DNA of 63,192 nucleotides. Source: Anaerohalosphaeraceae bacterium (GTDB taxonomy: Bacteria; Planctomycetota; Phycisphaerae; Sedimentisphaerales; Anaerohalosphaeraceae). Positions within the stretch are counted from its first letter, which is position 1. The number at the start of each line of letters is the position of its first letter. The notes below the pieces were generated by a model. It was not told where the DNA came from. It ran no database searches and saw only the letters and a list, made by a program, of their open reading frames with translations. Below are positions 37,911-54,433 of this stretch, in pieces. The stretch lies in NCBI GenBank assembly GCA_037479115.1, contig JBBFLK010000018.1, positions 1-63,192 of the forward strand, written 5' to 3'. The translations under genes and the position numbers were made by a program.

Positions 37911-37936
37911 GTCTTTATTAAGGGAAGGTTACGACG

Positions 37937-38413: not shown

Positions 38414-38467
38414 CCCGCTTCTTGGCGGACCCAACCGAAACCCCCGGACTTAGACAGGAATCGTACC

Positions 38468-39061
38468 ATGAAAGCCGAGCAGGTCACGGAGAAAATCCTC
38501 AGCGAAGCCAGGCAGGAGGCGGAGCGGATTCTGGACGAGGCGCGCCGCCAGGTTCAGGCCCGACAGGAGGCGTTTGAGCGGGAATCCGCGGCATTCGAGC
38601 AGGAGACGGAGCAGCTGGCCCGCCGCAGCGCCGAGGACAAACAGGCGCGGATGCTGGCGGCGGCCCGGATGGAGCTGCGGAAAAAGATTTTGGCTGCCAA
38701 GAGAGAGCTGCTGGATGAGGTGTTCGAAAAAGCCTATCAGCGGCTGAACCGGCAGGAGGACGGCGCCTATCTGGAGCTGATGGGCCGGCTTCTGATGCAG
38801 GCGGTTGTTACCGGCGATGAAGAAGTGGTCGTCGGCAGAAACGAAACGCGGATTAATCAGGATTTTCTCAAGCAAATCAACAAGCGTCTGGGGCCGGGCT
38901 ACAAGGGCAATCTGCGGCTTTCGTCCGAGCGGGCGGATCTGGACGGAGGATTTCTCCTTCGTCGGGGCAAAGTGCAGGTCAACTGCTCGCTGAAGGTGCT
39001 GCTGGAACAGATTCGTGAACGAATAGAGATGGAACTGGCTGAAAAATTATTCGGCAACTGA
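38468..39061 (+). CDS. ntpE: V-type ATPase subunit E
   Basis: 197 residues. The N-terminal half is a stalk coiled coil (KILSEARQEAERILDEARR, AARMELRKKILAAKRELLDE); the C-terminal half is the globular part that contacts subunit B (SSERADLDGGFLLRRGKVQVNCSLKVLLEQIRE). With the G/H protein it forms the peripheral stalk. The TGA stop overlaps the ATG of the next gene by one base. Confidence 0.92.
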   Translation: MKAEQVTEKILSEARQEAERILDEARRQVQARQEAFERESAAFEQETEQLARRSAEDKQARMLAAARMELRKKILAAKRELLDEVFEKAYQRLNRQEDGAYLELMGRLLMQAVVTGDEEVVVGRNETRINQDFLKQINKRLGPGYKGNLRLSSERADLDGGFLLRRGKVQVNCSLKVLLEQIRERIEMELAEKLFGN

Positions 39062-40098
39062 TGGATTCGTTTCCGCCCATTCTGGATTTTTACCGGTATC
39101 CTCCAATCGGCGAGGAAGACTGGCGGTATGTGTACGCGACCGCGCGGGTTCGCGTGCTGGAAACGCTGATGCTCAAGCGGTCGATGCTGTCGGAGCTGGC
39201 TCATGCGGACGGGTTCGAAACGGCCGCGGAGCTGCTGAGCGGAACGGAATATGCCGTCGGTCGGCAGGCGTCGGCAGAGGAAATCGAACAGGTGCTTCTG
39301 GGCCGCCGGCGTCAGGTGCGGCAGCTGTTTGTGCAGCTGGCGGAGGAGCCGGGGTTTGTGCAGATGTTTCAGGCACGGGAGGATTTTTCCAATATGCGTC
39401 TGGCCGTGCGCCGCGTCGTTACGGACAGACCCCTGGGCACGGACTACAGCCCGGAGGGAGCGGTTCCGGCGGAGGAGTTTGAGGAAATTTTCGAACAGGA
39501 AAACTATCAGCGGTTTCCGGAGTATCTGCAGGAAGCGGTGGAGGCCGCCGTTCTGGCCTACTATGAAAACAAGGATGTTCGGCAGATTGATTACGCCATC
39601 GACCGGGTGGAGGCCGCCTGGCGGGTTCGGCACAGTCTGGCCATCGGCAGCGTCTTCTGTCTGTCGCTGTCGCGGATTCGAATTGATTTGCACAATATCC
39701 GGACGATGCTGCGGCTGAAAGCCGCCGAACGGACGGAGCGGAATCTGTTTCTGCCGGACGGTTTTGTGGATACGGCCCGGTTTCTCCAGGGGCTTGAGCA
39801 TGGCTACGATACGCTGGCGTCGCTGTTTGCGGCGACTCCCTATCAGGAACTGGTGGAGGAAGCGGTCCGGTATCTGCGGGAAAAGGGGTCGTTTCTGGCC
39901 CTCGAGCGGGGCTGTGAAGATTATCTGATGGAATTTCTGAAGACCACGCGTCAGCTGGCGGCGGGTCCGCAGCCGATTGCGGCTTATCTGCTGATGAAGG
40001 AGGCGGAGATTCGAACGGTTCGGATGCTGCTGATGGGCAAGAAAAACGGCCTGTCAACCGAACTGCTGCTGGACCGGCTGGGGACGTGGATGGATTAA
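39061..40098 (+). CDS. ntpC: V-type ATPase subunit C (central stalk adaptor)
   Basis: 345 residues, all helical, with the family opening YVYATARVRVLETLMLKRS, the middle DVRQIDYAIDRV and RIRIDLHNIRTMLRLKAAE, and the terminal YLLMKEAEIRTVRMLLMGKKNGL. It caps the c-ring and receives the D-F shaft. Translation is coupled to subunit E through a TGATG overlap. Confidence 0.92.
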   Translation: MDSFPPILDFYRYPPIGEEDWRYVYATARVRVLETLMLKRSMLSELAHADGFETAAELLSGTEYAVGRQASAEEIEQVLLGRRRQVRQLFVQLAEEPGFVQMFQAREDFSNMRLAVRRVVTDRPLGTDYSPEGAVPAEEFEEIFEQENYQRFPEYLQEAVEAAVLAYYENKDVRQIDYAIDRVEAAWRVRHSLAIGSVFCLSLSRIRIDLHNIRTMLRLKAAERTERNLFLPDGFVDTARFLQGLEHGYDTLASLFAATPYQELVEEAVRYLREKGSFLALERGCEDYLMEFLKTTRQLAAGPQPIAAYLLMKEAEIRTVRMLLMGKKNGLSTELLLDRLGTWMD

Positions 40099-40132
40099 CA
40101 GACCGGCATTCGGCCGGGCAAAAAATATAACC

Positions 40133-40152
40133 GGAAGCCGCTGTCGGCTTCC
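40133..40152 (+). promoter_or_regulatory. Intra-operon hairpin before the subunit F gene
   Basis: GGAAGCCG (40133-40140) and CGGCTTCC (40145-40152) form a perfect 8-bp stem with a CTGT loop, ending directly before the AAAGGGACGG ribosome site of subunit F. No T run follows, so it is not a terminator; an RNA processing or translation-tuning element is possible. Confidence 0.5.
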
Positions 40153-40164
40153 AAAGGGACGGAA

Positions 40165-40485
40165 ATGGAAGGCAAAGCAGCCGTATTGGGAACAGCGGAT
40201 TTTGTGATGCCGTTTTCGGCGCTGGGGCTGGATACGTTCGCCGTGGAGCCGACTTCCGAAGCGGTGCAGGAGACGGCCCGGGTCATCCTCCGCCAGCAGT
40301 ACACGCTGGTGGTGGTGGCGGAAAATGTGGCCCGCCAGGCCCAGTCGGTTTTTGATACGACGATGCGGAAGGCCCTGCCCTGTGTGGTGGTGGTGCCGTT
40401 TACCGCCGAACCGTCCGGGATTGCAACCGAATCGCTCGGGCGGCTGATTAAACTGGCCGCCGGTATCAATATTCTCAAGCATTAG
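40165..40485 (+). CDS. ntpG: V-type ATPase subunit F
   Basis: 106 residues, a small alpha/beta protein. Features are [20 protein letters not shown] at the start, [11 protein letters not shown] in the middle, and [14 protein letters not shown], the usual core of subunit F. It sits with subunit D in the rotating shaft. Its position between C and A matches the Enterococcus hirae order (where it is named NtpG). Confidence 0.9.
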
Positions 40486-40531
40486 CGCACAGCCCATCAG
40501 GGAACTTTTTGAGCAAACGGAAGCAGGAAAT

Positions 40532-42310
40532 ATGACGGAACAAAAAATCGGAAGAATCGTCAAGGTGGCCGGCCCGGTGGTGGTGGCCGAAGGAATGACC
40601 GGCGCTCATATGTACGATGTGGTTCGCGTCGGCGAAGAAAACCTCATCGGGGAAATTGTGGAGCTGCACGGCGACCGGGCCAGCATTCAGGTCTATGAAG
40701 ACACGGTCGGCATCGGTCCCGGGGAGAAGGTGGTCAATACCGGCGCCCCGCTGAGTGTGGAACTGGGGCCCGGGCTGATTTCGAACATCTATGACGGCAT
40801 CCAGCGTCCGCTGAGCGCTCTGGTGGAAGCGCAGGGCAGCTTCATCAAGCGCGGCAGCGATATTCCGGGCCTTCCGCGGGACAAAAAATGGCACTTCCGC
40901 CCGACCCTCCAGAACGGCACCGAAGTCGGGCCCGGGGATATTCTGGGCGAGGTGCAGGAATCAACCCTGGTTCGGCACAAGATTATGGTGCCGCCCGGCG
41001 TGCGGGGACGGCTGGAGGGCCTCTCGGAGGGCGAGTTTACCGTTACGGACAAGATTGGTACGGTCCAAACGAAGGACGGCGAGCGGGTGCTGACGCTGAT
41101 GCAGAAGTGGCCTGTGCGGCGGCCCCGTCCGGTTCAGCAGCGGCTGAATCCCAACAAGGTGCTTCTGACGGGCCAGCGTGTGATTGATGCATTTTTCCCG
41201 ATTGCCAAGGGCGGAACGGCCTGTGTGCCCGGTCCGTTCGGCACCGGCAAAACGGTTGTCCAGCACCAGCTGGCCAAGTGGGTGGATGCCGACATCGTGG
41301 TGTATATCGGATGCGGCGAGCGCGGCAACGAAATGACGGACGTGCTCAGGGAGTTTCCCGAACTGATCGACCCGCACAGCGGCGAGCCGCTGATGAAACG
41401 GGTTGTTCTGCTGGCCAACACGTCGGATATGCCTGTGGCGGCGCGGGAAGCGTCGGTTTATACCGGCATCACGATTGCCGAATATTTCCGCGATATGGGA
41501 CTGTCGGTGGCGCTGATGGCTGACAGCACCAGCCGATGGGCGGAGGCGATGCGGGAAATCTCCACGCGGCTGGAGGAAATGCCCGCCGAAGAAGGGTATC
41601 CGGCCTATCTGGGGGCGCGAATCGCCTCCTTCTATGAGCGGGCCGGCCGGGTCATCTGCTCCGGAAGCCCGCAGCGGGAAGGGGCCCTGTCCATCATCGG
41701 GGCCGTCAGTCCGCCCGGCGGCGACCTGTCCGATTCGGTGGTGCAGGCCACCCTGCACGTCGTGAAGGTCTTCTGGTCTCTGCTGGCCCGGCTGGCCCAG
41801 CAGCGGCACTTCCCGGCGATTGACTGGCTGACCAGTTATTCCTTCTATAAGCAGTATCTGGCGGAGACCTTTGAGGACAAAGACAAGGGACGCGAGTTCG
41901 TTCAGATGACCAAAGAGGCGATGGCTCTGCTGGAACAGGAAGCCCAGCTGGTGGAAATCGTCCGTCTGGTCGGAGCGGAGGCCATCAGTGCCGCCGACCG
42001 GATGGCCCTCGAAACGGCCAAGAGCATCCGCGAGGACTTCCTGCACCAGAACGCCTTCCACAAGGTGGATACCTACACGCCGATTGACAAGCAGTATGAT
42101 ATGCTCAGTCTGATTCTGCATTTTCATCGGCAGGGGCTGGCGGCGATTGAGCGCGGCGTAGAAACGGCGGAGCTGTTCGCCCTGCCGGTTCGGGAGGATA
42201 TCGCCCGGGCCAAATACATTGATTATGCCGAGGCGGACAAGATTCGGGCGATTCGGGACAAAATCGACGCCCAGATTAAGGAACTTGCCTCTTCTGCGGC
42301 GGCCAAGTAA
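40532..42310 (+). CDS. ntpA: V-type ATPase catalytic subunit A
   Basis: 592 residues. The P-loop GPFGTGKT lies at residues 234-241. The non-homologous bulge ([22 protein letters not shown]) typical of A subunits precedes it. [19 protein letters not shown] with the catalytic Glu, [14 protein letters not shown] and [11 protein letters not shown] are all intact, so ATP hydrolysis or synthesis is expected. Start has AGGAAAT upstream. Confidence 0.96.
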
Positions 42311-42345
42311 GCAACCCATCAGACAGCAGACACAGGAGTTTGCCG

Positions 42346-43761
42346 ATGTTGAAAGAATACAGAACCGTTCAGGAAATCGCCGGACCGCTGATGCTCGTGG
42401 AGGGTGTCGAGCGGGCCAAATACGGTGAAATCGTGGATATCGAGATGGGCGACGGCACCATCCGGCACGGTCAAATCCTGCAGGTGGAAAAGGACAAGGT
42501 GCTGGTGCAGGTGTTTGAAGGGACCGAAGGCATCGACGTGCGGGATACGACGGTGCGGTTTCTGGGCAAGCCGATGGAGCTGGCGGTCTCGCCGGACATC
42601 CTCGGGCGGGTTTTCAGCGGAACGGGGCAGCCCAAGGACGGCGGCCCGGCCATCATCCCCAAAAAGCGGCTGAACATCAACGGCAACCCCATCAATCCCT
42701 ATGCCCGCGACTATCCCAATGAGTTCATTCAGACGGGCATCAGCACAATTGACGGGCTGAACCCGCTGGTGCGCGGGCAGAAACTGCCGATTTTCTCCGG
42801 TTCGGGTCTGCCGCACGATGAAATCACGGCCCAGCTGGCCCGGCAGTCCACCGTGCTGGGCAAGGGAGAAAACTTTGCAGTAGTGTTTGCGGCGATGGGC
42901 ATTACGTTCGAGGCGGCCCAGTTCTTCATCAACGACCTGACGGAAACGGGGGCCATCGAGCGGGCCGTGCTGTTCATCAATCTGGCCAACGACCCGGCGA
43001 TTGAGCGGATTGCCACGCCGCGTGTGGCGCTGACGGCGGCGGAATACCTGGCGTTTGAAGAGGATATGCACGTGCTGGTTATCCTGAATGATATGACCAA
43101 CTACTGCGAGGCACTGCGCGAAATCAGCGCCGCCCGCAAGGAAGTGCCGGGCCGGCGCGGCTATCCGGGCTATCTGTACACCGACCTGGCGACCATTTAT
43201 GAACGGGCCGGCCGAATCAAGGGCAAAAAAGGCTCGATTACGATGGTGCCGGTACTGACAATGCCGGAAGATGACAAAACGCACCCGGTGCCCGACCTGA
43301 CGGGCTATATTACGGAAGGGCAGATTATTATGAGCCGCTCGCTTCATCGGCGCGGGATTGCTCCGCCGGTGGATGTGCTGCCCAGCCTGTCGCGTCTGAA
43401 AGACAAAGGCATCGGACCGAACAAGACCCGCGAGGACCACGCCGACCTGTACAACCAGCTTTATGCGGCCTATGCCCGCGGCAAGGAAGCTCAGGAATTG
43501 GCGACGATTCTGGGCGAGGCGGCCCTGTCAGCGGAAGACCAGAAGTATATGAAGTTTGCCAACGAGTTTGAGGCCCGCTACATCTCGCAGGGCTATTATG
43601 AAAACCGGACGATCTTCCAGACCCTGGACCTCGGCTGGGAGCTGTTGAGTATGTTCGAAAATGTCGAACTGAAACGAATTGATATTAAACTCATTGAAAA
43701 GTATATGCCGAAATTCCGTGCCAAAAAGGGCTCGGATACGGCCGAAGCCGAAAAAGCCTAA
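42346..43761 (+). CDS. ntpB: V-type ATPase regulatory subunit B
   Basis: 471 residues. ATG 42346 has AGGAG seven bases upstream; a TTG two codons earlier is not needed. The body has [45 protein letters not shown] and [34 protein letters not shown]. As expected for B, the P-loop is replaced by SGSGLPHDE and is not catalytic. Confidence 0.96.
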
Positions 43762-43773
43762 ACGCCGGAACCT

Positions 43774-44394
43774 ATGCAGCAGAATATCAACGCAACCCGA
43801 ATGGAAATGCTGCGGCTTCGCAGGCGCGTCGCCCTGGCCGTGCGGGGCCATCGTCTGCTCAGCCAGAAGCGGGATGAAATCAGCCGCCAGCTGGTGCTGA
43901 TTTCCCGCTCCCTCAAGGAGCTGCGGCAGAAGGTCGAGCGGGAGCTGCTGGAAACGAGCCGGCGGTTTGTGATGGCCCGTTCCACGATGGAGCCGGAACA
44001 CGTCCGGGCGGCTCTGGACGTCCCCACCAAAAAGTTTTCGCTGGCTGTGCAGTTTGCCAGTGTGATGAGCGTAAAGGTGCCGCAGCTGACCAAGCAGATT
44101 GAAGGCGATATCCTCTGCTATGGATTTGCCGCAACCAGCGGCGAAATGGATGTGGCGCTGCGGGCCCTGGAGCGGGCGTTTGATATGCTGATTGAACTGG
44201 CGGAAAAGGAAAAGCAGGCCCAGCTGCTGGCGATTGAACTGCAAAGCACCCGCCGGCGCGTAAATGTTCTGGAGCACGTGGTTATTCCGGAGCTTCAGGC
44301 GACGATTCGGTTCATTTCCAACAAACTCGGCGAGGCCGAACGGGACAACATCAGCCGACTGATGATTATTGCCGATATGATTCGCGGAGAATAA
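43774..44394 (+). CDS. ntpD: V-type ATPase subunit D (rotor shaft)
   Basis: 206 residues forming a long helical hairpin, with the family opening NATRMEMLRLRRRVALAVRGHRLL and KRDEISRQL and the closing RRRVNVLEHVVIPELQATIRFI. It is the central shaft in the A3B3 hexamer and ends the nine-gene operon G/H-I-K-E-C-F-A-B-D. No clear terminator follows before the promoter at 44440. Confidence 0.94.
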   Translation: MQQNINATRMEMLRLRRRVALAVRGHRLLSQKRDEISRQLVLISRSLKELRQKVERELLETSRRFVMARSTMEPEHVRAALDVPTKKFSLAVQFASVMSVKVPQLTKQIEGDILCYGFAATSGEMDVALRALERAFDMLIELAEKEKQAQLLAIELQSTRRRVNVLEHVVIPELQATIRFISNKLGEAERDNISRLMIIADMIRGE

Positions 44395-44439
44395 CGGCGG
44401 ATTTTCTATCGGAGACCTCCGTATCTCAGAAAACGGTTC

Positions 44440-44468
44440 TTGCCTCCCAGGTATTCTGCCTGTACAAT
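44440..44468 (+). promoter_or_regulatory. Promoter of the membrane Hsp70-type cluster
   Basis: TTGCCT (44440-44445), 17-bp spacer, TACAAT (44463-44468). Transcription would start about 44475, giving a 67-base leader. Confidence 0.6.
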
Positions 44469-44504
44469 ATCTCCTTCATTGAACGGTTAAGCCGAAATCT
44501 TAAC

Positions 44505-44515
44505 GAAACCGGTTT
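44505..44515. promoter_or_regulatory. GAAACCGGTTT element in the leader
   Basis: Contains the 10-bp palindrome AAACCGGTTT. The 11-base string is identical to the core of the palindrome at 24361-24382, which sits on another promoter. It may be a weak site for the same LacI-type regulator. Confidence 0.4.
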
Positions 44516-44541
44516 AGGAGCCGGTGCATAATCTTTTAATT

Positions 44542-46407
44542 ATGGCAGAACCCAGTCCAGGCATAAAACCCGCCGGGCCTACCAAATCCTTTATGACGGC
44601 CGGCCCGACTTTGCACTACAGCCATGCGAATGTGTACAGCTGCTGGCTGCTGTCGATTGTGGTGTATGCAGGGGTTTGTCTGTTCTGGGGCCGCCTGACC
44701 AACGGGCAGTTTCTGGTTCTGAATCTTCTGGAGCTGTTTCACCCGCATCAATGGCATCTGGGACGGGTGGTTACGGAACCCCTGAGCATCTATGAGTATC
44801 CCTGGCAGATTGCGATTTTAGGCACACTGATGGGGATTCTGGCGGTCGGACCGCTGCTGACGGCCCAGCTGATGAGTTTTCGATTCAGCATCCCGATGAT
44901 TGTGCTGGCTGTTTTTCTGGCCCGTCTTCCGATGCTGGGGGGCTTTCTGGTGCTGTCCTGTATTGCGGTGGCCTGCCGGCCGCTGCGGTTTCGTTCGCGG
45001 ATTATTTCGCTGGCGCTGTGCATGGCCGGTCCGATGATTTACTGGGCGGCCTTCGGCGGGATTCACAGCAGCGACCCGATTCGATGGGGCATTTCCTATA
45101 CCCCGTGGATTTACGCCTGGCTGATTGCGATGCTGATTGCCGGAGTCGTCATCGCCGTCGGGCATTATACGCGGTATCGTCCGGGGCTGGTCTGGCTGAT
45201 GACGCTGGCGGCGGGTGCCGCCGCATTCCTGACCTTTGAAAGGACCATCGGGTTTGATGAACTGGACTTTCAGTTGTTTGTGGCCGGCCACAATCCGGAA
45301 GAGCAGGTGGAGTTTCACGACCATTCTCTTACGAAATATCTGGATCGAATTCTGGCTGATGAGATGCGGTACAGTTATTTTGCGGGCTATTTCTATCCGA
45401 GCGACAAAATCGATCTGCGGAAAAAACTTCGGGAGGAAATTGAAAATCTGCTGTACTACAACCGCTGGCCGCAGTGGTTTCTCAGCGACCTGCCGGAGAA
45501 GCTGCGGTATCAGTCCAAACGAAGCGAACTGCTGGCGCAATACAACTATTTTCTGGACAAGAGACCGAACAGCCGCCGGGTTCCGATTGCCCTGTATTTC
45601 AAGGCGATGCTGAACGAGCTGGCGCCCGATGCCCGCTATTTCGGGCAGACGGAAGTGCTTCGTTTCTATCGCGACTATCCTTTTTATGAAAATCTTCACA
45701 TCTGGCAGGACCTTCTGGTTCGGTTTCCGCAGAGCCCGGAGGCGCTGGAGTCCCGATGGCGTCTGGCGGTTCACATGGCCGGGCGGGGCCGCTTCAAGGA
45801 AGCCCATGATTTGTGTACGGTGGCGCTGGCTCTTCTGGAGCAAATGCTGCCGTCTTTTTCGGAGCCGCCGATTGCCGCCGGCAGTTTTACAACAGCGTTT
45901 GGGCATCCGATTCAAACGGCGATGACCCGGTACAAGCTGCAGGACCTTCGAAGCCGTCTGCTGATGCTGATGGAGCTGATTTCGCCCGCCAACCAGGGCG
46001 GCAGCGAAGCGGAGCGTCAGCGTCTGGCCCGGTTTGTTCTGCTCAACCCGTACGGAATCCAGTATGCCCGGCAGATTGAGGACCTTCTGGCGTCTTCCTG
46101 GGAGGAGGATCCGCTTCGCGACAATCTGCTGGTGGCGCGGACCCGTTTGATGGCGGATTTGCAGGCACGGGCGGCGGCCCTGCGGGAAATCTGGGAAAAA
46201 TATCCGGACCGTGACGGAGGGATTCAGGCCCTTTATGAACTGGGGGCCCTGCGCCTTCAGCAGTGGAAGGAGGCCAGGGCGGACGGAGCCAAGACCGAGC
46301 TGCTGGCGGAGGCCCGTTCTCTGCTGACCCACCTGATTCAAACCTATCCGCAAAGCCCGTTTGCCGATTCCGCCCGTCGGCTTCTGGCCCCGCTGGCCAA
46401 CCTGTAA
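44542..46407 (+). CDS. Polytopic membrane protein with TPR-like helical C-terminal domain
   Basis: About 621 residues from ATG 44542; a GTG at 44524 is possible but its AGGAG is only three bases away. Residues about 30-250 hold roughly seven hydrophobic spans, including SCWLLSIVVYAGVCLFW and WLIAMLIAGVVIAVG. The remaining 370 residues are soluble and helical. They contain TPR-like stretches such as FPQSPEALESRWRLAVHMAG, GRFKEAHDLCTVALALL and YPQSPFADSARRLLAPL. I do not recognise a family. It has its own promoter and precedes the GrpE-like, Hsp70 and J-like genes, so it may be the client scaffold or membrane core of that machine; this is inference. The 348-base gap after it means co-transcription is uncertain. 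Confidence 0.75.
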   Translation: MAEPSPGIKPAGPTKSFMTAGPTLHYSHANVYSCWLLSIVVYAGVCLFWGRLTNGQFLVLNLLELFHPHQWHLGRVVTEPLSIYEYPWQIAILGTLMGILAVGPLLTAQLMSFRFSIPMIVLAVFLARLPMLGGFLVLSCIAVACRPLRFRSRIISLALCMAGPMIYWAAFGGIHSSDPIRWGISYTPWIYAWLIAMLIAGVVIAVGHYTRYRPGLVWLMTLAAGAAAFLTFERTIGFDELDFQLFVAGHNPEEQVEFHDHSLTKYLDRILADEMRYSYFAGYFYPSDKIDLRKKLREEIENLLYYNRWPQWFLSDLPEKLRYQSKRSELLAQYNYFLDKRPNSRRVPIALYFKAMLNELAPDARYFGQTEVLRFYRDYPFYENLHIWQDLLVRFPQSPEALESRWRLAVHMAGRGRFKEAHDLCTVALALLEQMLPSFSEPPIAAGSFTTAFGHPIQTAMTRYKLQDLRSRLLMLMELISPANQGGSEAERQRLARFVLLNPYGIQYARQIEDLLASSWEEDPLRDNLLVARTRLMADLQARAAALREIWEKYPDRDGGIQALYELGALRLQQWKEARADGAKTELLAEARSLLTHLIQTYPQSPFADSARRLLAPLANL

Positions 46408-46755
46408 TCAACTCCTGAAAAAGTGAGTTATCGGACGTCCGGAAGCGGCTGCCAAAACTCAACGGACATTCAGGAAGCATCTGTTTTGAAATGCAACCTT
46501 CCGGACCGATAAAAACCTTTTTGACAGTTCGTCTGAAAACCAACGGCGTCTTCTTTTTTTGAAAAACGTTTGCGGACTTACCTGCCGCCTCAGTTTGGCC
46601 GATAGAGAAAGCGGATTGATTGTTATAGTTTAAAAGACGAGGACCTGCCGGAACGAAGGTCCGCCCTGATTTTGTTTTGTGAAGGAAGAAAGAGTCGGGC
46701 CCTGCCGTGAATCGGGCCGCCGGCGCCAAACCTCAACCTCCAAACGAGGCCGTTT
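46408..46755. other. 348-bp gap within the Hsp70-type cluster
   Basis: No gene is supported. A TATAGT at 46624-46629 could be a -10 box, without a good -35. A 10-bp palindrome CGGACGTCCG lies at 46432-46441. A separate promoter for the GrpE-like gene cannot be excluded. Confidence 0.4.
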
Positions 46756-48123
46756 ATGGATGCGGACAGGGAAAACGGGAAAAACAGTTCAGCCAGACAC
46801 TGGCTTACCTGGGCCCTGCTGGCTCTGCTGCCCGGTCTGACCGGATGGTGCATCGTTTTGACACAGCGGCAAATCCAGCAGAACCGGACGGACAGCTATC
46901 GGGAAATCAGCCGGCAGGAGAAGGAAGAATTTCTTCGAATGTATGAGGAATGGAATCGTCTCAGTCCTCAGGAAAAGGCGGACAATCCGTGGGGCAGCGG
47001 ACCCTACGGGGGACCGGAGATACAAAAACGGCTGCGGTCGCATCAGGAAGAACGGCTGATGGCCGACCTTCCGGAACTGATGGCCGACCAGGCCTTCCCG
47101 AGTGAGCTGGGGGATATTCTTTACGGTCCCGGCTGGAGGCAGCGGGTTCAGAAATATCAGAAACAGATTGAGTTTCAGGAAATCCTGAGCATCTTTTCCA
47201 CGATTCTGCTGGCGTCCGGCGGGCTGGTGCTTTTCATTGGAACGCTGATTTGGCTGGTCGGATCCGCCAGGGCGGCCGCGGAAAAATCCGAATCAGAGGA
47301 ATGTTCAGTGGGCACCGAGGATGTTTCCGCCGGCGGAGTATCGGGGGGCATGGCGGAGCAGAAAAGTACCGACCCGCAGCCAAGTCAGGCCAAGGAGGTG
47401 TTTCTGTTCCCGCAGCGCAGCGCCTCCGAGAAGAAAGCTGCCGAGGCCGTCAGCGGTACTCCATCCTCCGACACGTCTCCCAACCCGGAGCCGAAAAAAC
47501 CCGCGGCGGATTTATCCGGCGGCAAACGGGTCAGAACGGACAAGCCGGCTCTTGTGCCGGCCCAAACGGATGAGCTGCAAACCACCGCCCGAACGGCTGC
47601 TGCCGTTTTGACGGAACCGGAGCCGGCGGCTGCAGACCCCATTCTGGCATCGCTGATGGCCCCGATTCCGGTCGTCAAAGGACTGTCGGAAATCAGCGAA
47701 CAGATGTCGGCCATTCGCGAATTCGCCGCCGAACAGCAGAACCAGGTCCGAAAGTTTCAGGACGGCTACGACTGGATGCTGATTAAGCGGTTCTGTCTGC
47801 GGATTATCCGCTGCATTGACAATCTGGAGGACCGCATCCGGCAGCTTCAGAACGCCGGCCAGGATGTTTCTATGCTCAGGGACATCCGGGATGAAATTCT
47901 GTTTGCCCTCGAATCCAGCGGCGTCGAGCAGTACGAGCCGGAAATCGGGCTGGACTACAAGGGCCTGGAGCGGTATGCCGAATCCGTCCGGGAGAAAAAG
48001 GAAAACGATGACCCGAGCAAGAGCGGACGCATCGCAGAAGTCGTCCGTCCGGGCTATCAATATCTGATTAACGATGAGGAAGTCAAAATCGTTCGCTGCG
48101 CTCAGGTGAAACTGTATGCGTGA
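46756..48123 (+). CDS. Membrane-anchored GrpE-like nucleotide exchange factor
   Basis: 455 residues. Hydrophobic spans at about 16-37 and 145-169 form a hairpin with a 105-residue loop between them. Residues 170-300 are a Pro/Ala/Glu/Lys-rich disordered linker. Residues about 310-455 resemble GrpE: a coiled-coil start (SEISEQMSAIREFAAEQQNQ), the helical part LRIIRCIDNLEDRI where GrpE has its LDNLERA motif, ILFALESSGVEQYEP where GrpE has its GVE motif, and a beta head GRIAEVVRPGYQYL then VKIVRCAQVKL. The resemblance is to pattern, not strong identity. The next gene encodes an Hsp70, 27 bases away, which supports the reading: an exchange factor tethered to the membrane so that Hsp70 cycles there. 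The ATG is preceded by GAGG. Confidence 0.75.
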   Translation: MDADRENGKNSSARHWLTWALLALLPGLTGWCIVLTQRQIQQNRTDSYREISRQEKEEFLRMYEEWNRLSPQEKADNPWGSGPYGGPEIQKRLRSHQEERLMADLPELMADQAFPSELGDILYGPGWRQRVQKYQKQIEFQEILSIFSTILLASGGLVLFIGTLIWLVGSARAAAEKSESEECSVGTEDVSAGGVSGGMAEQKSTDPQPSQAKEVFLFPQRSASEKKAAEAVSGTPSSDTSPNPEPKKPAADLSGGKRVRTDKPALVPAQTDELQTTARTAAAVLTEPEPAAADPILASLMAPIPVVKGLSEISEQMSAIREFAAEQQNQVRKFQDGYDWMLIKRFCLRIIRCIDNLEDRIRQLQNAGQDVSMLRDIRDEILFALESSGVEQYEPEIGLDYKGLERYAESVREKKENDDPSKSGRIAEVVRPGYQYLINDEEVKIVRCAQVKLYA

Positions 48124-48150
48124 GCGAGAACAGCATAAGGACAGAAGACT

Positions 48151-49701
48151 ATGGGCATGATAGCAGGCATAGATTTGGGAACTACTTTTTCGGCGCTGGC
48201 GATTCTGAACAAAATCGGCCGTCCGGAAGTGGTTCCGAACAGTGAAGGAGAGCGGCTCACGCCGTCTGTGGTGTATTTTGATGAAGACCAGGACGCCACG
48301 GTTCGTGTCGGCATCGAGGCGCTGAACTGCCGGCAGCTCAATCCGGACCGGGCAATCCGCTGGATAAAGCGGCACATGGGCGATTCCCAGTGGCGAAAGA
48401 CCATCGGCAATCGGGTCTGGACGCCGGAGGAAATCTCCAGTCTGATTCTGAAAAAGCTCAAACAGGATGCGGAGATGATTTATCCGAACATTGAGCATGT
48501 CGTCATCTCCGTGCCGGCGCATTTTGACGAGGTTCGCCGAAAGGCCACAATGGACGCCGGTGCCATGGCCGGGATGAATGTCATCGGCATTGTCAACGAA
48601 CCGGTGGCGGCGGCGCTCTATTATGCTACGACGCACGATGTCAACGGCCGGGTGCTGGTCTATGACCTGGGCGGCGGCACATTTGACGTGACGATTATGG
48701 ATGTCAGCGGCCAGAATATTCAGATTGTCTGCAACCAGGGCGACCATGCCCTGGGCGGTGTGGATTTTGACCGGAAAATCCTTCAGATGTTCGAAAAGGC
48801 CTATCAGGAGCAGACCGGCCAGCCGCTGATTACCAACTTGCAGGAACAGGCCCAGTATGAAGACGAGGCCGAAGATGTCAAAAAGACGCTGTCGCGCCGC
48901 CCGGTGGCCAAAAAGATTCTGTACGGCAAGGCCGGCAGCGCTCGGATTGAAATTACGCAGGCCCAGTTTGAGGAGGCCGCCGAGCCGCTGGTCGGACGCA
49001 CGGAGATGCTCATTGACGTCAGTCTCCAGGAGGCGGGCTGCACGGTTAAAGAAATTGATCAGGTCCTGCTGGTGGGCGGCAGCACCCGCATCCCGCTGGT
49101 GCAGAAACGGCTGACCGAAAAATTCGGCAAGCCCCCGCTGGTGGCCGTCAATGTGGATGAGTGTGTGGCGCTGGGGGCGGCCATCCACGCCGGTTTGACC
49201 CTGCTGCGGCAGAATCCTAAACAGGTAGAGGCGGGCATTGCCGCCGGCCTGCGCGACATTAAACTCAAAGATGTCTGCAACCACAGTTACGGAACGCTGT
49301 GTGCCCCGTTCGACGAGGCTACGGGCAAGCACGTCATTCGCAACAGCATCCTGCTGAAGAAAAATACGCCGCTGCCGTGCGAGGCCACGCAGACCTTTTA
49401 TACGATGTGCGAAGGGCAGACGGAGCTTCAGATTACTATCACGCAGGGAGAAGATGAAGACCCGGATTTTGTCAACAAAATTGCGACGGAAATCTTTGAA
49501 CTGCCCCCCAATCGGCCGGCCAATCGTCCGATTCGGGTTCGATACAGTTATGACCTCAACCAGCGGATGCACTGCACGTTCTGCGACGAGGAGTCCGGCC
49601 GAACACTGGAAGTGGACCTGGCTCTGACGCCCGACGGGTCGGCCGTTCAGAAATCCATTCATCAGAAAACAGAGGAAATCGCCAAATTCCAGGTTCGCTG
49701 A
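48151..49701 (+). CDS. Hsp70 (DnaK-like) chaperone lacking the helical lid
   Basis: 516 residues. The nucleotide-binding domain is complete: IDLGTTFSAL (residues 7-16), EPVAAALYYAT, VYDLGGGTFDVTIMD (170-184) and GGSTRIP (309-315). A beta-rich substrate domain follows (about 385-500: LLKKNTPLPCEATQTFYTMCEGQTEL). The chain stops where DnaK has its alpha-helical lid, and there is no EEVD-type tail. DnaK is about 120 residues longer. It therefore probably binds peptide without lid closure, or binds a dedicated partner. The start follows AAGGACAG. The stop overlaps the next ATG by one base (TGATG), coupling it to the J-like gene. Confidence 0.92.
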   Translation: MGMIAGIDLGTTFSALAILNKIGRPEVVPNSEGERLTPSVVYFDEDQDATVRVGIEALNCRQLNPDRAIRWIKRHMGDSQWRKTIGNRVWTPEEISSLILKKLKQDAEMIYPNIEHVVISVPAHFDEVRRKATMDAGAMAGMNVIGIVNEPVAAALYYATTHDVNGRVLVYDLGGGTFDVTIMDVSGQNIQIVCNQGDHALGGVDFDRKILQMFEKAYQEQTGQPLITNLQEQAQYEDEAEDVKKTLSRRPVAKKILYGKAGSARIEITQAQFEEAAEPLVGRTEMLIDVSLQEAGCTVKEIDQVLLVGGSTRIPLVQKRLTEKFGKPPLVAVNVDECVALGAAIHAGLTLLRQNPKQVEAGIAAGLRDIKLKDVCNHSYGTLCAPFDEATGKHVIRNSILLKKNTPLPCEATQTFYTMCEGQTELQITITQGEDEDPDFVNKIATEIFELPPNRPANRPIRVRYSYDLNQRMHCTFCDEESGRTLEVDLALTPDGSAVQKSIHQKTEEIAKFQVR

Positions 49702-50849
49702 TGACGGAACGGGTCTTGAGCATTCTGATTGTTGTGCTGACGCTGGGAGCGATTGGGGCGGCCCTCGGCCCGGCCTGTCTGCGGCGATGGCTCAGCGTGC
49801 TGATACCCGCCCTGGACCCGCGGCGGTTTGCCTGTCGCGTGCTTGTGTTTGAGGAGGAAACAGGCGCCGGCTGCCGGGATATCCTGAAAATTCAGATTCA
49901 GGGTGCGATTCGGGCCCCGCATCCGAATTGTGATACCGACCTGCTGATTCAGCTGACCGACGCAACCGACAAAGGGACTGTCAAGCCGGTGCTGTGCCGA
50001 CGCACGGAATGGACCACGGACGGCACACCCGCCCATCAATACCGCTTTCACAACGGTCTGCTGCCGGCCCGGGTGTCGGTCCTGAAGGACTGGGTTACCA
50101 TTGCCGAAATCGGTGTCTGGGAGCTGGTCTTTCCGCGGCGAGGACCGGCGGTCCTTGAATGCGAAGTGACCGTTCTGGATAAGGCAGCCGGCAAAGCCCT
50201 GGCCTGTGCACGAAGCCAAGTTTCGCTGTTGTCCGAACACTTCGGCTATGAGGAAATTCAGCAGCAGAAGCTGGCCAAACAGAGTGCCATGCGTCAAATT
50301 GTCTGGGCTGTCTGGCGGATGACGGCGCCGAATCCGGCGGGCAAAGAACTGCTGGAACGCTGGCTGCAGGAACGAAAGCTGCCTGCCGCCGAAAAGGCTG
50401 AACTGTCTGCGGAGCAGGCCGCTTCTCTCGTTCAGGAGGCGTGCGAGCAGCTGGCGGGCTATGCGGACCCTGCCGACGGCTGTGCCGTTCTGGAAATCTG
50501 TATGCGGATTGCCGCCGCCGGCGAATCGATTCCCCAGTCCCTTTTATCTGTGCTTCAGACTCTTGCCGCCAACCTCGAAATCCCCAAAGACCGCTGGGAG
50601 GCCCTTGTGCAGAAATACCTGAGCCGCCAGGCCGAACACATCCAGGACCCGATGCTTCTGCTGGGGCTTCACGAGCGGATGACAGAGGCCCAAATCCTCG
50701 AAAAACTCACCAGTGAATACCGCAAATGGAACGCCCGGGTAACCCATCCGGACCCGGCCGTCCGCAAGCAGGCCGACCAGATGCTGAACCTGATTGCCCA
50801 GTGCCGCAGCCGGTTTGCCCGTCAGGCCTCCGGAAGCAGTCGCGGATAA
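49701..50849 (+). CDS. DjlA-like membrane protein with TerB-like and J-like domains
   Basis: 382 residues. One N-terminal membrane span (VLSILIVVLTLGAIGAALG, residues 5-23) is followed by a beta-rich domain (about 42-178), a helical region resembling TerB (about 185-312, with AVLEICMRIAAAGESIPQSLLSVLQTLAANLEI), and a C-terminal segment 316-372 with J-domain layout: DPMLLLGL, helix QILEKLTSEYRKW, the tripeptide HPD at 349-351 and helix RKQADQMLNLIAQC. TM plus TerB plus C-terminal J is the plan of E. coli DjlA. The J part is divergent, so the call rests on order, HPD and the adjoining Hsp70 gene. Its ATG overlaps the Hsp70 stop by one base. Confidence 0.72.
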   Translation: MTERVLSILIVVLTLGAIGAALGPACLRRWLSVLIPALDPRRFACRVLVFEEETGAGCRDILKIQIQGAIRAPHPNCDTDLLIQLTDATDKGTVKPVLCRRTEWTTDGTPAHQYRFHNGLLPARVSVLKDWVTIAEIGVWELVFPRRGPAVLECEVTVLDKAAGKALACARSQVSLLSEHFGYEEIQQQKLAKQSAMRQIVWAVWRMTAPNPAGKELLERWLQERKLPAAEKAELSAEQAASLVQEACEQLAGYADPADGCAVLEICMRIAAAGESIPQSLLSVLQTLAANLEIPKDRWEALVQKYLSRQAEHIQDPMLLLGLHERMTEAQILEKLTSEYRKWNARVTHPDPAVRKQADQMLNLIAQCRSRFARQASGSSRG

Positions 50850-50858
50850 GCTTCTTTT

Positions 50859-51974
50859 TTACGGCGAAGAAGCCGACGGCTCATCCGCCCCGGCCGGCTG
50901 GTCATCGTTTCGCTTTTCGTAGAGATAATCCTTCAGAAAGCAGCCCATCTCATAGGGCCCGCAGCGCAGCGTCCAGTCGGGGTTGAACAGTCTGGGCTCC
51001 CAGTCATAGCTGGCAGCCCAGCAGGTGCTGCTGATTTTGAACTGTTCGATCCAGTCCATCAAAGGGCGTCCGTAGTTGTCAATTGTGGCCGGCGGAATAT
51101 GGCGGTGACGGAAACTGCGGCTGAACCCCCACTCGCTCATAAAGACCGGATGCACCTTCACGCAGCGGAGGATATGGTCTTTGTACCACTGGGCGTTCTC
51201 GCTGAGCCAGTGCATCGGATAAATATGGGAAACGATGGCATAATTTTTGCCGCCGATGGGGTCATCGATGGGATAGTCAGCGGCGGGTCCGATGATTTGC
51301 GAATAGTTGGCGCCGGCAATCAGCAGCAGCGTCCGCGGGGCATACTGCCGAATCAGGTTGACCCACTCCTGCATATCTTTCCGCACACTCAGCCAGCATT
51401 CCTCATCCGTGCCGACCTTGTTAATCGGCTCGTTGAACAGCTCAAAAATAACATGGCTGTCCTCGGCAAACCGCGGCGCCATATACTCCCAGAACTGCCG
51501 CGTCGTTTCGCGATGGTCGAAGGTGTTGCCGATGTAGTGCCAGTCCACAATGGCATACAAATCCTTGCTTTTGCAGTAGTCCACCACAGGGCGCAGCAGC
51601 TTCTCATAGAAATCATCCCGGCCGGGAATAAACGTCCACGGGCTTTTGTAATCCTCTTCATCCGGCGGATAAATCGGAATGCGGATGACCTTCGGATACC
51701 AGCCGGGAGAAGAACCCTGCGGGTCATTGCGGTTGGTCAGCCGGTCAATCATCCGAATCGCCCCGCCGAACTGTTTTTCCGTCCCGCCCAAATCAATCAA
51801 AGACACGCCGCGCAGAACTACCACATTGCCCGCCGGGTCTTTGAGGACCGTTCCTTCCGCGCGCAGCCAGGGGGTGGCTGCTGCCGACCAGGCTCCGAGA
51901 AACAGAAAGAAGCCGAGGGTGCTGCTGTTCGGCCGGAATGCGGCAATGTCTGATTTTTTGGGTACCTGTTTCAT
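50859..51974 (-). CDS. Secreted GH5-type beta-glucanase
   Basis: 371 residues. An N-terminal signal-like stretch (STLGFFLFLGAWSAAATPWLRA) precedes a TIM-barrel with GH5 marks: RIPIYP, DWHYIGNTFDH, the acid/base Glu in VIFELFNEP (near residue 180) and the nucleophile Glu in PVFMSEWGFS (near residue 280). It would hydrolyse beta-1,4-glucan or a related beta-glycan outside the cytoplasm. Its ATG overlaps the stop of the GH94 gene (ATGA), so the two are translated together. The signal is longer than usual and begins with a polar leader. Confidence 0.88.
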   Translation of the reverse strand: MKQVPKKSDIAAFRPNSSTLGFFLFLGAWSAAATPWLRAEGTVLKDPAGNVVVLRGVSLIDLGGTEKQFGGAIRMIDRLTNRNDPQGSSPGWYPKVIRIPIYPPDEEDYKSPWTFIPGRDDFYEKLLRPVVDYCKSKDLYAIVDWHYIGNTFDHRETTRQFWEYMAPRFAEDSHVIFELFNEPINKVGTDEECWLSVRKDMQEWVNLIRQYAPRTLLLIAGANYSQIIGPAADYPIDDPIGGKNYAIVSHIYPMHWLSENAQWYKDHILRCVKVHPVFMSEWGFSRSFRHRHIPPATIDNYGRPLMDWIEQFKISSTCWAASYDWEPRLFNPDWTLRCGPYEMGCFLKDYLYEKRNDDQPAGADEPSASSP

Positions 51975-54433
51975 GGTTTCGTCCCCATTTCTGCATTGAC
52001 ACGAACGGTTTGGCCGGCCGGAAAGACCGGCACGACTTGTCCCTGAATCGGTGTTCCGTTGACCAGCAGGCGGCGGATGCCCTTCATCACCCCGCCCGGA
52101 TTGCTCACGTGAATTTCATACCGGCAGCCGCGGAAGAGCCGATGCACGGTGAAACCCTTCCAGTCCGGCGGGATGCACGGGTCAATGCACAGCCCATCGT
52201 ATTCGGGCCTAATTCCCAGGATATATTGCGTGAGGGCGACATAGGTCCAGGAGGCGGTGCCGGTCAGCCAGGAGTTTTTGGCCTCGCCGGGCAGCGGGGC
52301 ATCCTTGCCGGCGATAGTCTGAGCAAAGCAGTAGGGCTCGCTGCGGTAAACATCCAGCCGGTCCTCTTTGGCCGCCGGACAAATCCGCCGATACAGCTCC
52401 CACGCCTTGTCCCCGCGTCCGAGGATGGTTTCGGCGATAATTATCCAGGTGTTGTTGTGGCAGAAGACGCTCGCATTCTCCTTATAGCCGGGCGGATACG
52501 AGGTGATTTCGCCCAGATAGTCGCGGTAATAGGTAAAGGCGGGCTGCACAAGGACCATTCCATTCTCATCGGCCAGATGCTCCCAGGCACTGTCGAGGGC
52601 CTGTCGAGCTTTCCCATCCTCCAGCCCCAGGCCGGCCATCACGCCCCAGCCCTGCGTTTCGATAAAGATTTTGCCTTCGTCGCAGGAGGCCGAGCCGACG
52701 GGCCGCGAAAAATGGTCATACGCCCGGCGGAACCATTTGCCGTCCCAGCCGAACTGCATCACGGCTTCTTTCATTGCGGCGGCTTCTTTTTCGTAGGCAT
52801 CTGCGGCTGCCGCATCGCCTCGCCGGCGCAGCAGGGCCGCCAGCCGGCCTGCGCTGTAAATGAACAGCTGGGCGACCATCACTGATTCGGCCCGGCCGCC
52901 TTCGATATCGCCGGCCAGCTGAAAGCTTTCGCCGGGGGTATTGCTGAAGCAGTTCAGGTTCAGACAATCGTTCCAGTCGGCATGGCCGATCAGCGGCAGA
53001 TTGTGCGGCCCTCGGTCTGCCAGCACCCGACGGGCCGACTGGTGCAGGTGGTCCAGCAGGGTTGTACGCTCGGCACTCTGGGGCTTGTCCGCATATCCGA
53101 CGGGAGCATCGAGAATCGATTCATCGCCGGTTTCGCGAATGTAGGCGTCCGTTGAAACAATCAGCCACAGCGGGTCGTCGCTGAAACCGGTGCCGGCTTC
53201 GTGGTTGCCCTGTTTGGTGAGGGGCTGGTACTGGTGATAGCAGGTGCCGTCGGAGTTCTGCGTGGCGGCCAAATCCAGAATCCGCTGTCGGGCCCGCGCG
53301 GCTACCATCTGCACGGAGCCGAGCAGGTCCTGATTGGAATCCCGAAACCCCAGCCCGCGTCCGATGCCGGATTCAAACGAACTGGCCGAACGCGACACAT
53401 TGAACGTAACCATACATTGATACGGATTCCAGGTATTGACCATCCGCCGAACCAGCGGATTGTCTATCTCGGTCTGAAGGGTTCCGAGGAGCTGCTCCCA
53501 GTGCCGCCGAAGCTGCTGAAACTTCTCCTCAATCTGCTCGGCTGTCTGAAACCGCCGGAGGACTTCATAACATCGTTCTTTGTTGAGCACGCCGGGAGCG
53601 GAAAATTTCTTTTCGGGCGGATTTTCCAGATACCCGAGAACAAAATGAAACGAGCGGGTTTGACCTGCCTCCAGCGTCAGCCGCAGATGGTGGGAACCGA
53701 CCGGCGCCCAGCCGTGGGCAATGCTGTCAGAAGACTTTCGTAAAAGCACGGCCTGCGGACAGCCGTAATCATTCATATTCCCCAGAAACGCATCGCGGCT
53801 GCTGTCAAATCCGACAACCGGTTCGCTGGAGGCGAAAAAGGCATAATGATTGCGGCGTTCGCGGTATTCAGTTTTGTGATAAATCACGCTGCCTTCGACT
53901 TCGACCTCGCCGGTGTTCCAGTTTCGCTGAAAATTGGTGGCGTCATCCCAGGCATTCCACAGACAGAACTCCGCATAACTGAAGATGTCGATGGTTTTTT
54001 TGCGTCGGCTGTGATTGGTCAGCTGAACCGCCCAGACCTCCGCATCTTCATCGACCGGCACAAAATAGGTCGTCCGGGCTTCGATTTCTCCGAGCCGGCC
54101 GGTAATTACGGTATAGCCGAGGCCGTGACGGCACTGGTAAAAATCCAGCGGGCGCCGCATGGGCTTAAAGCTCGGGTTCCAGGTGTCTTGCCCGTCGCAG
54201 ATGTACAGATAACGGCCGGGATTGTCTTTGGGCACCGCATTGTAAAAATAACGGGTAATCCGCCGCAGCCGGGCATCCCGATAAAAACTGTAGCCGCCGG
54301 CCGTATTCGAAATAATCCCCAGATAATCCTGAAATCCCAGATAGTTTATCCACGGAAGAGGGGTGTCGGGTCGCGTGATGACGTATTCCCGAGCCGCCTC
54401 ATCGAAAAAGCCGTACTTGGATGTCGTCTCCAT
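51971..54433 (-). CDS. GH94 cellobiose phosphorylase
   Basis: 820 residues with no signal, so cytoplasmic. Phosphorylases of GH94 split cellobiose with phosphate to glucose-1-phosphate and glucose. Marks are YGFFDEAAREYVITRPDTPLPWINYLG at the start, GRGLGFRDSNQDLLG, and IGHADWNDCLNLNCFS, where the Asp in DWND is the general acid in Cellulomonas cellobiose phosphorylase. Length and the N-terminal segment favour cellobiose phosphorylase over cellodextrin or chitobiose phosphorylases. It is upstream of and coupled to the GH5 gene: the secreted enzyme cuts, the phosphorylase harvests. A promoter lies at 54487-54515. Confidence 0.9.
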   Translation of the reverse strand: METTSKYGFFDEAAREYVITRPDTPLPWINYLGFQDYLGIISNTAGGYSFYRDARLRRITRYFYNAVPKDNPGRYLYICDGQDTWNPSFKPMRRPLDFYQCRHGLGYTVITGRLGEIEARTTYFVPVDEDAEVWAVQLTNHSRRKKTIDIFSYAEFCLWNAWDDATNFQRNWNTGEVEVEGSVIYHKTEYRERRNHYAFFASSEPVVGFDSSRDAFLGNMNDYGCPQAVLLRKSSDSIAHGWAPVGSHHLRLTLEAGQTRSFHFVLGYLENPPEKKFSAPGVLNKERCYEVLRRFQTAEQIEEKFQQLRRHWEQLLGTLQTEIDNPLVRRMVNTWNPYQCMVTFNVSRSASSFESGIGRGLGFRDSNQDLLGSVQMVAARARQRILDLAATQNSDGTCYHQYQPLTKQGNHEAGTGFSDDPLWLIVSTDAYIRETGDESILDAPVGYADKPQSAERTTLLDHLHQSARRVLADRGPHNLPLIGHADWNDCLNLNCFSNTPGESFQLAGDIEGGRAESVMVAQLFIYSAGRLAALLRRRGDAAAADAYEKEAAAMKEAVMQFGWDGKWFRRAYDHFSRPVGSASCDEGKIFIETQGWGVMAGLGLEDGKARQALDSAWEHLADENGMVLVQPAFTYYRDYLGEITSYPPGYKENASVFCHNNTWIIIAETILGRGDKAWELYRRICPAAKEDRLDVYRSEPYCFAQTIAGKDAPLPGEAKNSWLTGTASWTYVALTQYILGIRPEYDGLCIDPCIPPDWKGFTVHRLFRGCRYEIHVSNPGGVMKGIRRLLVNGTPIQGQVVPVFPAGQTVRVNAEMGTKP

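Follow-up and report, generated by a model that had tools for sequence, protein, structure and literature searches.

A probable membrane-side lidless Hsp70 module of three genes in a planctomycete lineage

The window analysed here is a stretch of 63,192 nucleotides from an Anaerohalosphaeraceae bacterium (Planctomycetota; GenBank assembly GCA_037479115.1, contig JBBFLK010000018.1, positions 1 to 63,192 of the forward strand). It contains a lidless Hsp70 module, probably membrane-side and composed of three genes, which encode a GrpE-like protein, an Hsp70 and a TerB/J-like protein. The computations show its gene order, the Hsp70 and GrpE folds, a TerB match, hydrophobic spans, motif losses and its distribution. 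It is a second Hsp70 set of this planctomycete lineage, beside the ordinary chaperones, since the same genome encodes, on other contigs, a canonical DnaK (876 bits), a GrpE of the canonical kind (139 bits) and a single canonical DnaJ. A search of that genome with the HSP70 profile gave one additional weak line (53 bits, contig C34).

Gene order and conservation of the module

An earlier note on this DNA, made from the sequence alone, had proposed a set of four same-strand genes headed by a polytopic protein. All four open reading frames (ORFs) are present on the plus strand, and the tight packing of the last three was described correctly: 27 bases separate the stop of the GrpE-like gene from the start of the Hsp70 gene, and the Hsp70 and J-like genes overlap by one base. 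The conserved unit nevertheless consists of three genes, the polytopic protein being merely a neighbour. The proposal is thus partly confirmed: the three-gene core is real and the fourth gene is not part of it.

Related loci were collected by scanning contigs with two short peptide patterns, a scan that detects close relatives only and was our sole reach into other phyla. It yielded 118 stretches, and the best 80 of 81 GrpE-like relatives form the locus set. The Hsp70 gene is the next module gene after the GrpE-like gene in 80 of these 80 loci, a recurrence beyond chance, and the J-like gene comes third in 71, so that the order of the three genes held. The remaining nine loci (L116, L120, L121, L135, L140, L145, L171, L176 and L181) hit a contig end, which by our reading of the locus lists lies at most about 430 bases past the Hsp70 gene. 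With gene starts assigned mechanically, the median spacing is 29.5 base pairs (bp) between the GrpE-like and Hsp70 genes (78 measurable pairs) and 18 bp between the Hsp70 and J-like genes (69 pairs). Of the 80 loci, 65 contribute a long J-like ORF to the family alignment A5, and 68 of the 78 long GrpE-like ORFs make up alignment A6; the window protein was added to each.

The lidless Hsp70

The central protein is matched by Pfam HSP70 with an E value of 2.2e-99 and has an actin-like nucleotide-binding domain, in which the ATP-site residues are retained according to the alignment. It ends at residue 516, and its alignment with DnaK chains stops at about their residue 500, the end of the beta substrate-binding domain; its description as lidless stands. 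The commonest Hsp70 ORF length across the 80 loci is 514-523 amino acids (aa), and no hydrophobic span was found in the window protein by hydropathy. Identity amounts to 34% with Escherichia coli DnaK, 33% with HscA, 31% with HscC and 33% with the DnaK of the same genome, and a deletion in subdomain IB is similar to that of HscC. In a tree of 24 rows, 20 of them triad Hsp70s and 17 of these from the 80 loci, the triad Hsp70s cluster apart from DnaK, HscA and HscC with a Shimodaira-Hasegawa-like approximate likelihood ratio test (SH-aLRT) value of 100, a placement for which the tool warns of long branches. The Hsp70 is the most conserved member of the module, with 76% mean column identity versus 39% and 39% for the other two.

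In DnaK, Arg167 bonds the aspartate of the His-Pro-Asp (HPD) motif (passages of PMC8215388). The corresponding place is occupied by Gly in 70 and by Ala in 8 of the 78 Hsp70s readable in the 80 loci; the DnaK of the window genome retains Arg there. At the place of Gln378, the other partner of this aspartate, His stands in 61 of 74 proteins and Gln still in 6.

The membrane-anchored GrpE-like protein

The two-helix anchor attributed to the first module protein corresponds to two hydrophobic spans identified by hydropathy (Table 1). In the structural model, which has a mean predicted local distance difference test (pLDDT) score of 76 with low confidence at about residues 192-307, the N-terminal half forms two long helices containing these spans. 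A short helical segment lies between them and includes the nearly invariant Y123, G124 and W127; its matches in the structure search were confined to helical arrangements, with Z no higher than 8.4.

The most conserved part of the protein is its C-terminal 150 residues, and here the GrpE fold that had been suggested was borne out by structure matches. The top Foldseek match is human GrpEL1 (E 1.5e-4, prob 1.00), and the six top VIA rows are all GrpE structures, with Z from 12.1 to 9.5 over 136-169 residues and the next unrelated row at Z 8.4. Their root-mean-square deviations (rmsd) of 4.7-10.3, and of 38.6 in one row, are large because the domains shift. Pfam GrpE gives the window protein 24.1 bits, against a cut-off of 25.8, and 26.1 in the genome search; it matches 58 of the 69 aligned members at E<=0.1 (best 1.6e-10). 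When solved structures were searched by sequence with the GrpE-like alignment A1 no GrpE match was obtained, though the structure search found GrpE. Fold and family matches support the assignment of a predicted GrpE-type exchange factor on a membrane anchor. Its GrpE domain would lie on the cytoplasmic side, because the module Hsp70 has no export span.

The TerB/J-like protein

The model of the third protein (mean pLDDT 91.2) consists of one anchor helix, a beta-sandwich, a helical TerB region and J-like helices, with HPD placed between helices 329-345 and 352-379. The protein had been said to have the DjlA domain order on a one-helix anchor. A hydrophobic span (residues 5-23), TerB and the J-like end do follow one another in that order, but the beta-sandwich domain (about residues 41-179), absent from the first description, is inserted between the span and TerB. 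The best VIA match of this extra domain has Z 8.6 and an rmsd of 3.5 over 111 residues. Positive charges place the C-terminus inside in 51 of the 53 proteins with a detected span among the 66 J-like proteins.

The profile matches for the two domains claimed for the rest of the protein differ. Pfam TerB is matched by 48 of the 66 aligned members at E<=1 (best 2.2e-11), whereas Pfam DnaJ is matched by 0 of the 66 at the same threshold, and HPD occurs in a minority of 17, the window protein having it. The motif is limited to close relatives: among the 66 of 80 loci that were readable, it is found in 16 of 23 close triads (Hsp70 score >970 bits) and in 0 of 43 more distant ones. The aspartate column alone is conserved in 59 of the 66 members, W343 and R346 in 65 (the last row being a gap), and K342 and A358 are nearly invariant.

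Profile comparisons were made by hhalign with a J set of 21 rows (16 canonical J domains from 30 loci tried, DnaJ, CbpA, DjlA, HscB and one misplaced DjlC row). The J-like end aligned in register with a score of 17.3 (probability 3.3%, P 0.013), and this score exceeded 59 of 59 control windows, the highest of which reached 14.8. Removal of the misplaced row raised the score to 20.1 (P 0.0033, probability 9.6), and inclusion of the true DjlB and DjlC N-termini gave a probability of 9.6-9.8 and P 0.0033; the controls were scored against the original set only, their scores being independent of this correction. The full J-like family compared with the J set gave a probability of 0.4 and P 0.15. 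When the J-like end alone was compared with DjlA it aligned to the wrong part and register (probability 0.5), and when the TerB-J part was used, TerB and the HPD loop aligned in line (P 0.00059). The order of helices in the model fits a J domain; no J-domain row is present among the 50 Foldseek rows listed for the model, and the VIA list was taken up by the beta-sandwich domain. A sequence search of solved structures with the J-like alignments returned no J or TerB match.

From these comparisons the protein would at best be DjlA-like in layout, carrying a remote or decayed relative of the J domain. Its case as a working J protein is weak, because no Pfam J match is found, most relatives lack HPD and the Hsp70 no longer has the corresponding arginine.

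Distribution and distant versions

An ortholog of the Hsp70 is present in 78 of 125 genomes of the order, with a single match reported in 77 of the 78. The J-like gene was found in 33 of 39 family genomes, including 18 of the 19 good ones, and an even draw from the class gave a J-like match in 40 of 297 genomes, one of them weak. Across a draw of 393 genomes from the phylum, the GrpE-like alignment A1 matched 9 (8 from the window's own family; one weak), alignment A3 matched 10 at E<=1e-140, and the J-like alignment A7 matched 24, of which 10 were near full length and 14 in the TerB part. Outside the family, near full-length J-like matches in this draw occur only in genomes G183 and G325.

These two genomes lie outside the order (G183 in the same class, G325 in the same phylum) and hold distant triads, at loci L198 and L199, that retain the gene order of the module. 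Each consists of a span-less GrpE-like gene, a lidless Hsp70 gene and an anchored TerB/J-like gene, followed by an M48 peptidase gene. Pfam GrpE scores 25.7 for L198, just under the cut-off of 25.8. It is absent for L199, where the assignment therefore rests on the place of the gene and on our reading of its sequence. HPD is missing from both J-like proteins. Since these distant versions have no spans on GrpE, the membrane anchor may be a later addition. Two of the contigs that carry the module (L121 and L186) are recorded as Gammaproteobacterium and Candidatus Kuenenia, perhaps through binning or naming errors.

A proposed dedicated Hsp70 cycle and its alternatives

We lean slightly towards a dedicated Hsp70 cycle at the cytoplasmic face of the membrane, with an anchored exchange factor, a TerB/J-like tether and a trigger that is probably not the HPD-Arg167 contact. 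If the three proteins interact physically, as we infer, the lidless Hsp70 would bind and hydrolyse ATP, because its ATP-site residues are retained. The beta domain alone would grip clients, and release should be fast because there is no lid. The GrpE-type factor of the module, whose two spans and long disordered linker would fix it in place at the membrane, would remove ADP, and the TerB/J-like protein, with one N-terminal span and its C-terminus inside, would tether the Hsp70 or a client at the membrane. As most J-like partners have lost HPD and the Hsp70s have lost the arginine that receives it, the client, or a different contact made by the J-like end (W343, R346, K342, A358), would probably set off hydrolysis. 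The clients are perhaps cytosolic parts of membrane proteins or of envelope-machine proteins; the earlier suggestion that the task is assembly of the first gene's product is unsupported, as is the polytopic protein as a fourth member.

The module is one more machine of planctomycetes, probably for quality control or assembly. Bacteria have the DnaK, HscA and HscC machines, and it is conceivable but rather doubtful that the module represents another kind, lidless and confined to the membrane, with an anchored GrpE and no HPD-Arg167 trigger; if true, it would mirror in layout the import motor of mitochondria and handle chains located at the membrane or passing through it. HPD with its arginine receiver is the textbook firing contact of Hsp70 (passages of PMC8215388), and both sides appear decayed here, in a conserved operon that still has an exchange factor and an ATP site. 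The module is a natural test case for the minimum that an Hsp70 cycle needs, with no lid and no HPD-Arg167 contact, and for why an exchange factor would be fixed to a membrane.

Several observations weigh against a dedicated cycle of this kind. The J-like protein of the window has HPD, and the HPE motif of DjlB and DjlC shows that HPD is dispensable in some pairs. The GrpE-like genes of L198 and L199 have no hydrophobic span, so the anchor is not in every version. The assumed topology of the anchor agrees poorly with the charges: positive charge is higher on the N side of span 1 in just 5 of 65 proteins, the stretch N-terminal of that span being short, and higher on the C side of span 2 in 25 of 65. 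The Hsp70 loop that GrpE presumably touches in DnaK is partly shortened here. The J-domain homology of the J-like end is weak.

A classical membrane J-protein/Hsp70/GrpE machine would work like DjlA with DnaK, a diverged but genuine J domain firing ATP hydrolysis with HPD or something in its stead; this is unlikely, though it survives best among the alternatives. The HPD of the window protein and of 16 of the 23 close triads would serve such a machine, but the motif is retained in 17 of 66 proteins and in 0 of 43 distant triads, and the receiving arginine is replaced in 78 of 78 readable Hsp70s; variation of the motif within a functional pair is known from DjlB and DjlC, which have HPE. The span-TerB-J order is that of DjlA and the TerB-J part aligns with it in line (P 0.00059), against which stands the misplaced alignment of the J-like end alone. 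In favour, the J set scored above all 59 controls, with a corrected score of 20.1 (P 0.0033); against, Pfam DnaJ matched 0 of 66 members. The model has helix, HPD loop and helix, but, set beside DnaJ, helix III begins immediately behind HPD and helix IV is not seen.

A role of the two anchored proteins, GrpE-like and TerB/J-like, mainly in bringing the housekeeping DnaK to the membrane, with the lidless Hsp70 as a regulator or decoy, is improbable. The DnaK of the genome has Arg167, so HPD-bearing relatives could use it, and in Myxococcus xanthus both nucleotide exchange factors bind DnaK1 (sections of PMC11019930); on the other side, the lidless Hsp70 is the most conserved of the three proteins and retains its ATP-site residues.

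We give as little credence to service for one envelope machine, either type II secretion/type IV pilus assembly or the neighbouring V-type ATPase. In 16 of the 61 loci with >1 kb upstream, a GspE/PilB-type ATPase gene ends no more than 150 bases before the GrpE-like gene (an assignment verified with Pfam T2SSE on one representative), and V-ATPase genes precede the module in the window and likewise in 7 of 80 loci, but neither neighbour is constant. A general role as V-ATPase assembly factor was rejected on this count of 7 in 80, although many loci are truncated.

That the module serves conflict or defence in the manner of the GAP1-N2 neighbourhoods is very improbable: the component list (HSP70, GrpE, DnaJ-FNIII; portions of PMC7159879) is similar and the J-like protein has a beta-sandwich domain, but none of the four proteins has a PADLOC match at E<=0.001, on which ground defence-system identity was rejected, no GTPase was seen among the recurrent neighbour families (by eye; four by Pfam), and 77 of the 78 positive genomes hold a single match.

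Comparison with known systems

No paper describing this gene set or a membrane-anchored GrpE was found by title or abstract start, a search that left subscription papers and preprints mostly uncovered. The view that no described system has this set holds in that sense, but partial precedents exist in HscC with DjlB/DjlC, DjlA, DnaK2 with GrpE and the GAP1-N2 neighbourhoods.

HscC resembles the module in being a divergent second Hsp70 with a subdomain IB gap and with membrane-anchored J proteins encoded nearby, of which DjlC stimulates it (passages of PMC8215388). It differs in its 556 aa and shortened lid, and the same passages describe it as needing no exchange factor; the module has its own GrpE-like gene. 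HscC retains Arg at the place of Arg167, where the lidless Hsp70 has Gly or Ala, and falls outside the triad Hsp70s in the tree (long branches). DjlB and DjlC depart from HPD as does the J-like family of the module; in E. coli K-12 both have HPE (L206/L212), a small exception in a known Hsp70 pair. They are, however, tail-anchored with an N-terminal J region, whereas the J-like partner in the module is N-terminally anchored.

DjlA shares one N-terminal span, a TerB-like domain and a cytoplasmic C-terminal J region with the J-like protein, but its J domain has HPD and works with DnaK and GrpE (parts of PMC11709261). By our reading, its 271 aa leave no room for the beta-sandwich domain. In M. 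xanthus, DnaK2 (MXAN_6671) is encoded beside a GrpE paralog (MXAN_6672), as in the module; the word "transmembrane" is absent from the main text of the paper concerned (PMC11019930, in part). Unlike the lidless Hsp70, this DnaK2 falls in the canonical branch as a paralog of DnaK. The GAP1-N2 neighbourhoods also bring together Hsp70, GrpE and a DnaJ-linked protein (portions of PMC7159879). They are centred on a GTPase and belong to actinobacteria and firmicutes, and no such GTPase was recognised here by eye.

The mitochondrial import motor has a soluble Mge1 and an Hsp70 with a lid. It is like the module in combining mtHsp70, the exchange factor Mge1 and anchored J and J-like proteins (Pam18/Pam16) at one membrane (parts of PMC11349236 and PMC9695410), but the analogy is of layout only, classic Pam18 keeping HPD (PMC11349236, in part). 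In trypanosomes, Pam18 (HSD) is a J-like protein of the membrane that lacks the motif and is believed to function independently of Hsp70 (same source, in part). The unusual point here, by comparison, is that the Hsp70 remains in the operon.

Polytopic neighbour and genomic surroundings

The positions of the module genes, their parts and the neighbours discussed are collected in Table 1.

Table 1. Features of the module and of neighbouring genes (positions refer to the window unless a locus is given)
Feature	Position	Strand	Basis
Polytopic protein gene, weak TPR/BamD-like matches at end	44542..46407	+	profiles, family alignment, hydropathy
Membrane-anchored GrpE-like gene, 455 aa	46756..48123	+	ORF, Pfam GrpE, fold match
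Hydrophobic span 1, aa 17-35	46804..46860	+	hydropathy
Hydrophobic span 2, aa 150-168	47203..47259	+	hydropathy
GrpE domain, aa 307-455, helices and beta domain	47674..48120	+	alignment conservation, model, fold match
Lidless Hsp70 gene, 516 aa	48151..49701	+	ORF, Pfam HSP70, DnaK alignment
Gly146 codon, place of DnaK Arg167	48586..48588	+	DnaK alignment
Interdomain linker LRDIKLKD (DnaK: VKDVLLLD)	49249..49272	+	DnaK alignment
Beta substrate-binding domain, then about 20 aa, no lid	49273..49635	+	alignment; exact end by our reading
Membrane-anchored TerB/J-like gene, 382 aa	49701..50849	+	ORF, model, Pfam TerB, hydropathy
Beta-sandwich domain, aa 41-179	49821..50237	+	model; immunoglobulin-like by our reading of matched domains
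TerB domain, Pfam-matched part, aa 230-301	50388..50603	+	Pfam E 0.013, below cut-off
J-like helical end, aa 317-379	50649..50837	+	model; helices 317-320, 329-345, 352-379
HPD, aa 349-351	50745-50753	+	sequence
M48 peptidase gene, L198	10791-11918	+	Pfam M48
M48 peptidase gene, L199	5785-6924	-	Pfam M48

The polytopic protein has six or seven hydrophobic spans by hydropathy, and its gene ends 348 bases before the GrpE-like gene. Its most likely start is ATG at 44542, where the family alignment begins, rather than GTG at 44524. The earlier note had given this gene a promoter of its own. A sigma-70-like match at 44440-44468 (9 of 12 positions) is no better than those in shuffled sequences, and as the four such matches in 44200-51000 are comparable to the shuffles (2.0 +/- 1.8), it is no evidence of a promoter.

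This protein is a common family gene standing beside the module. It is conserved in 34 of 39 family genomes, including 19 of the 19 good ones, and is present where the J-like gene was not found (G012, 99% complete; G024, 73%; G025, 85%), and in 13 of 80 loci its gene precedes the module; as a fourth member it was therefore rejected. Among 20 polytopic loci with short flanks, 11 have V-ATPase subunit D next to the polytopic gene and 12 have the GrpE-like gene there, and two of the 11 are in genomes without the J-like gene (G012 and G024). In the window, V-type ATPase genes for subunits I, K, E, C, A, B and D occupy 35913-44394, upstream of the polytopic gene.

When families present in at least four loci were considered, no single neighbour family was found to recur in most loci. 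The loci with a GspE/PilB-type gene include L131, L133, L136, L138 and 12 more of L108-L187. In both distant triads the M48 peptidase gene directly follows the TerB/J-like gene (Pfam M48 3.7e-15 and 2.8e-17). As a partner of the version described here it was rejected, no ORF in the 80 loci, of which 54 hold >1.5 kb downstream, or in 32 family stretches matching at E<=1e-3. With 29.8 bits, the best counterpart of the L199 protein in the window genome is a weak match, and its surroundings look by our reading like a LemA-type gene next to one of HtpX type. Downstream of the module, the minus strand at 50859-54433 carries a GH5 cellulase-family gene and a GH94-family gene, which overlap by four bases and converge on it.

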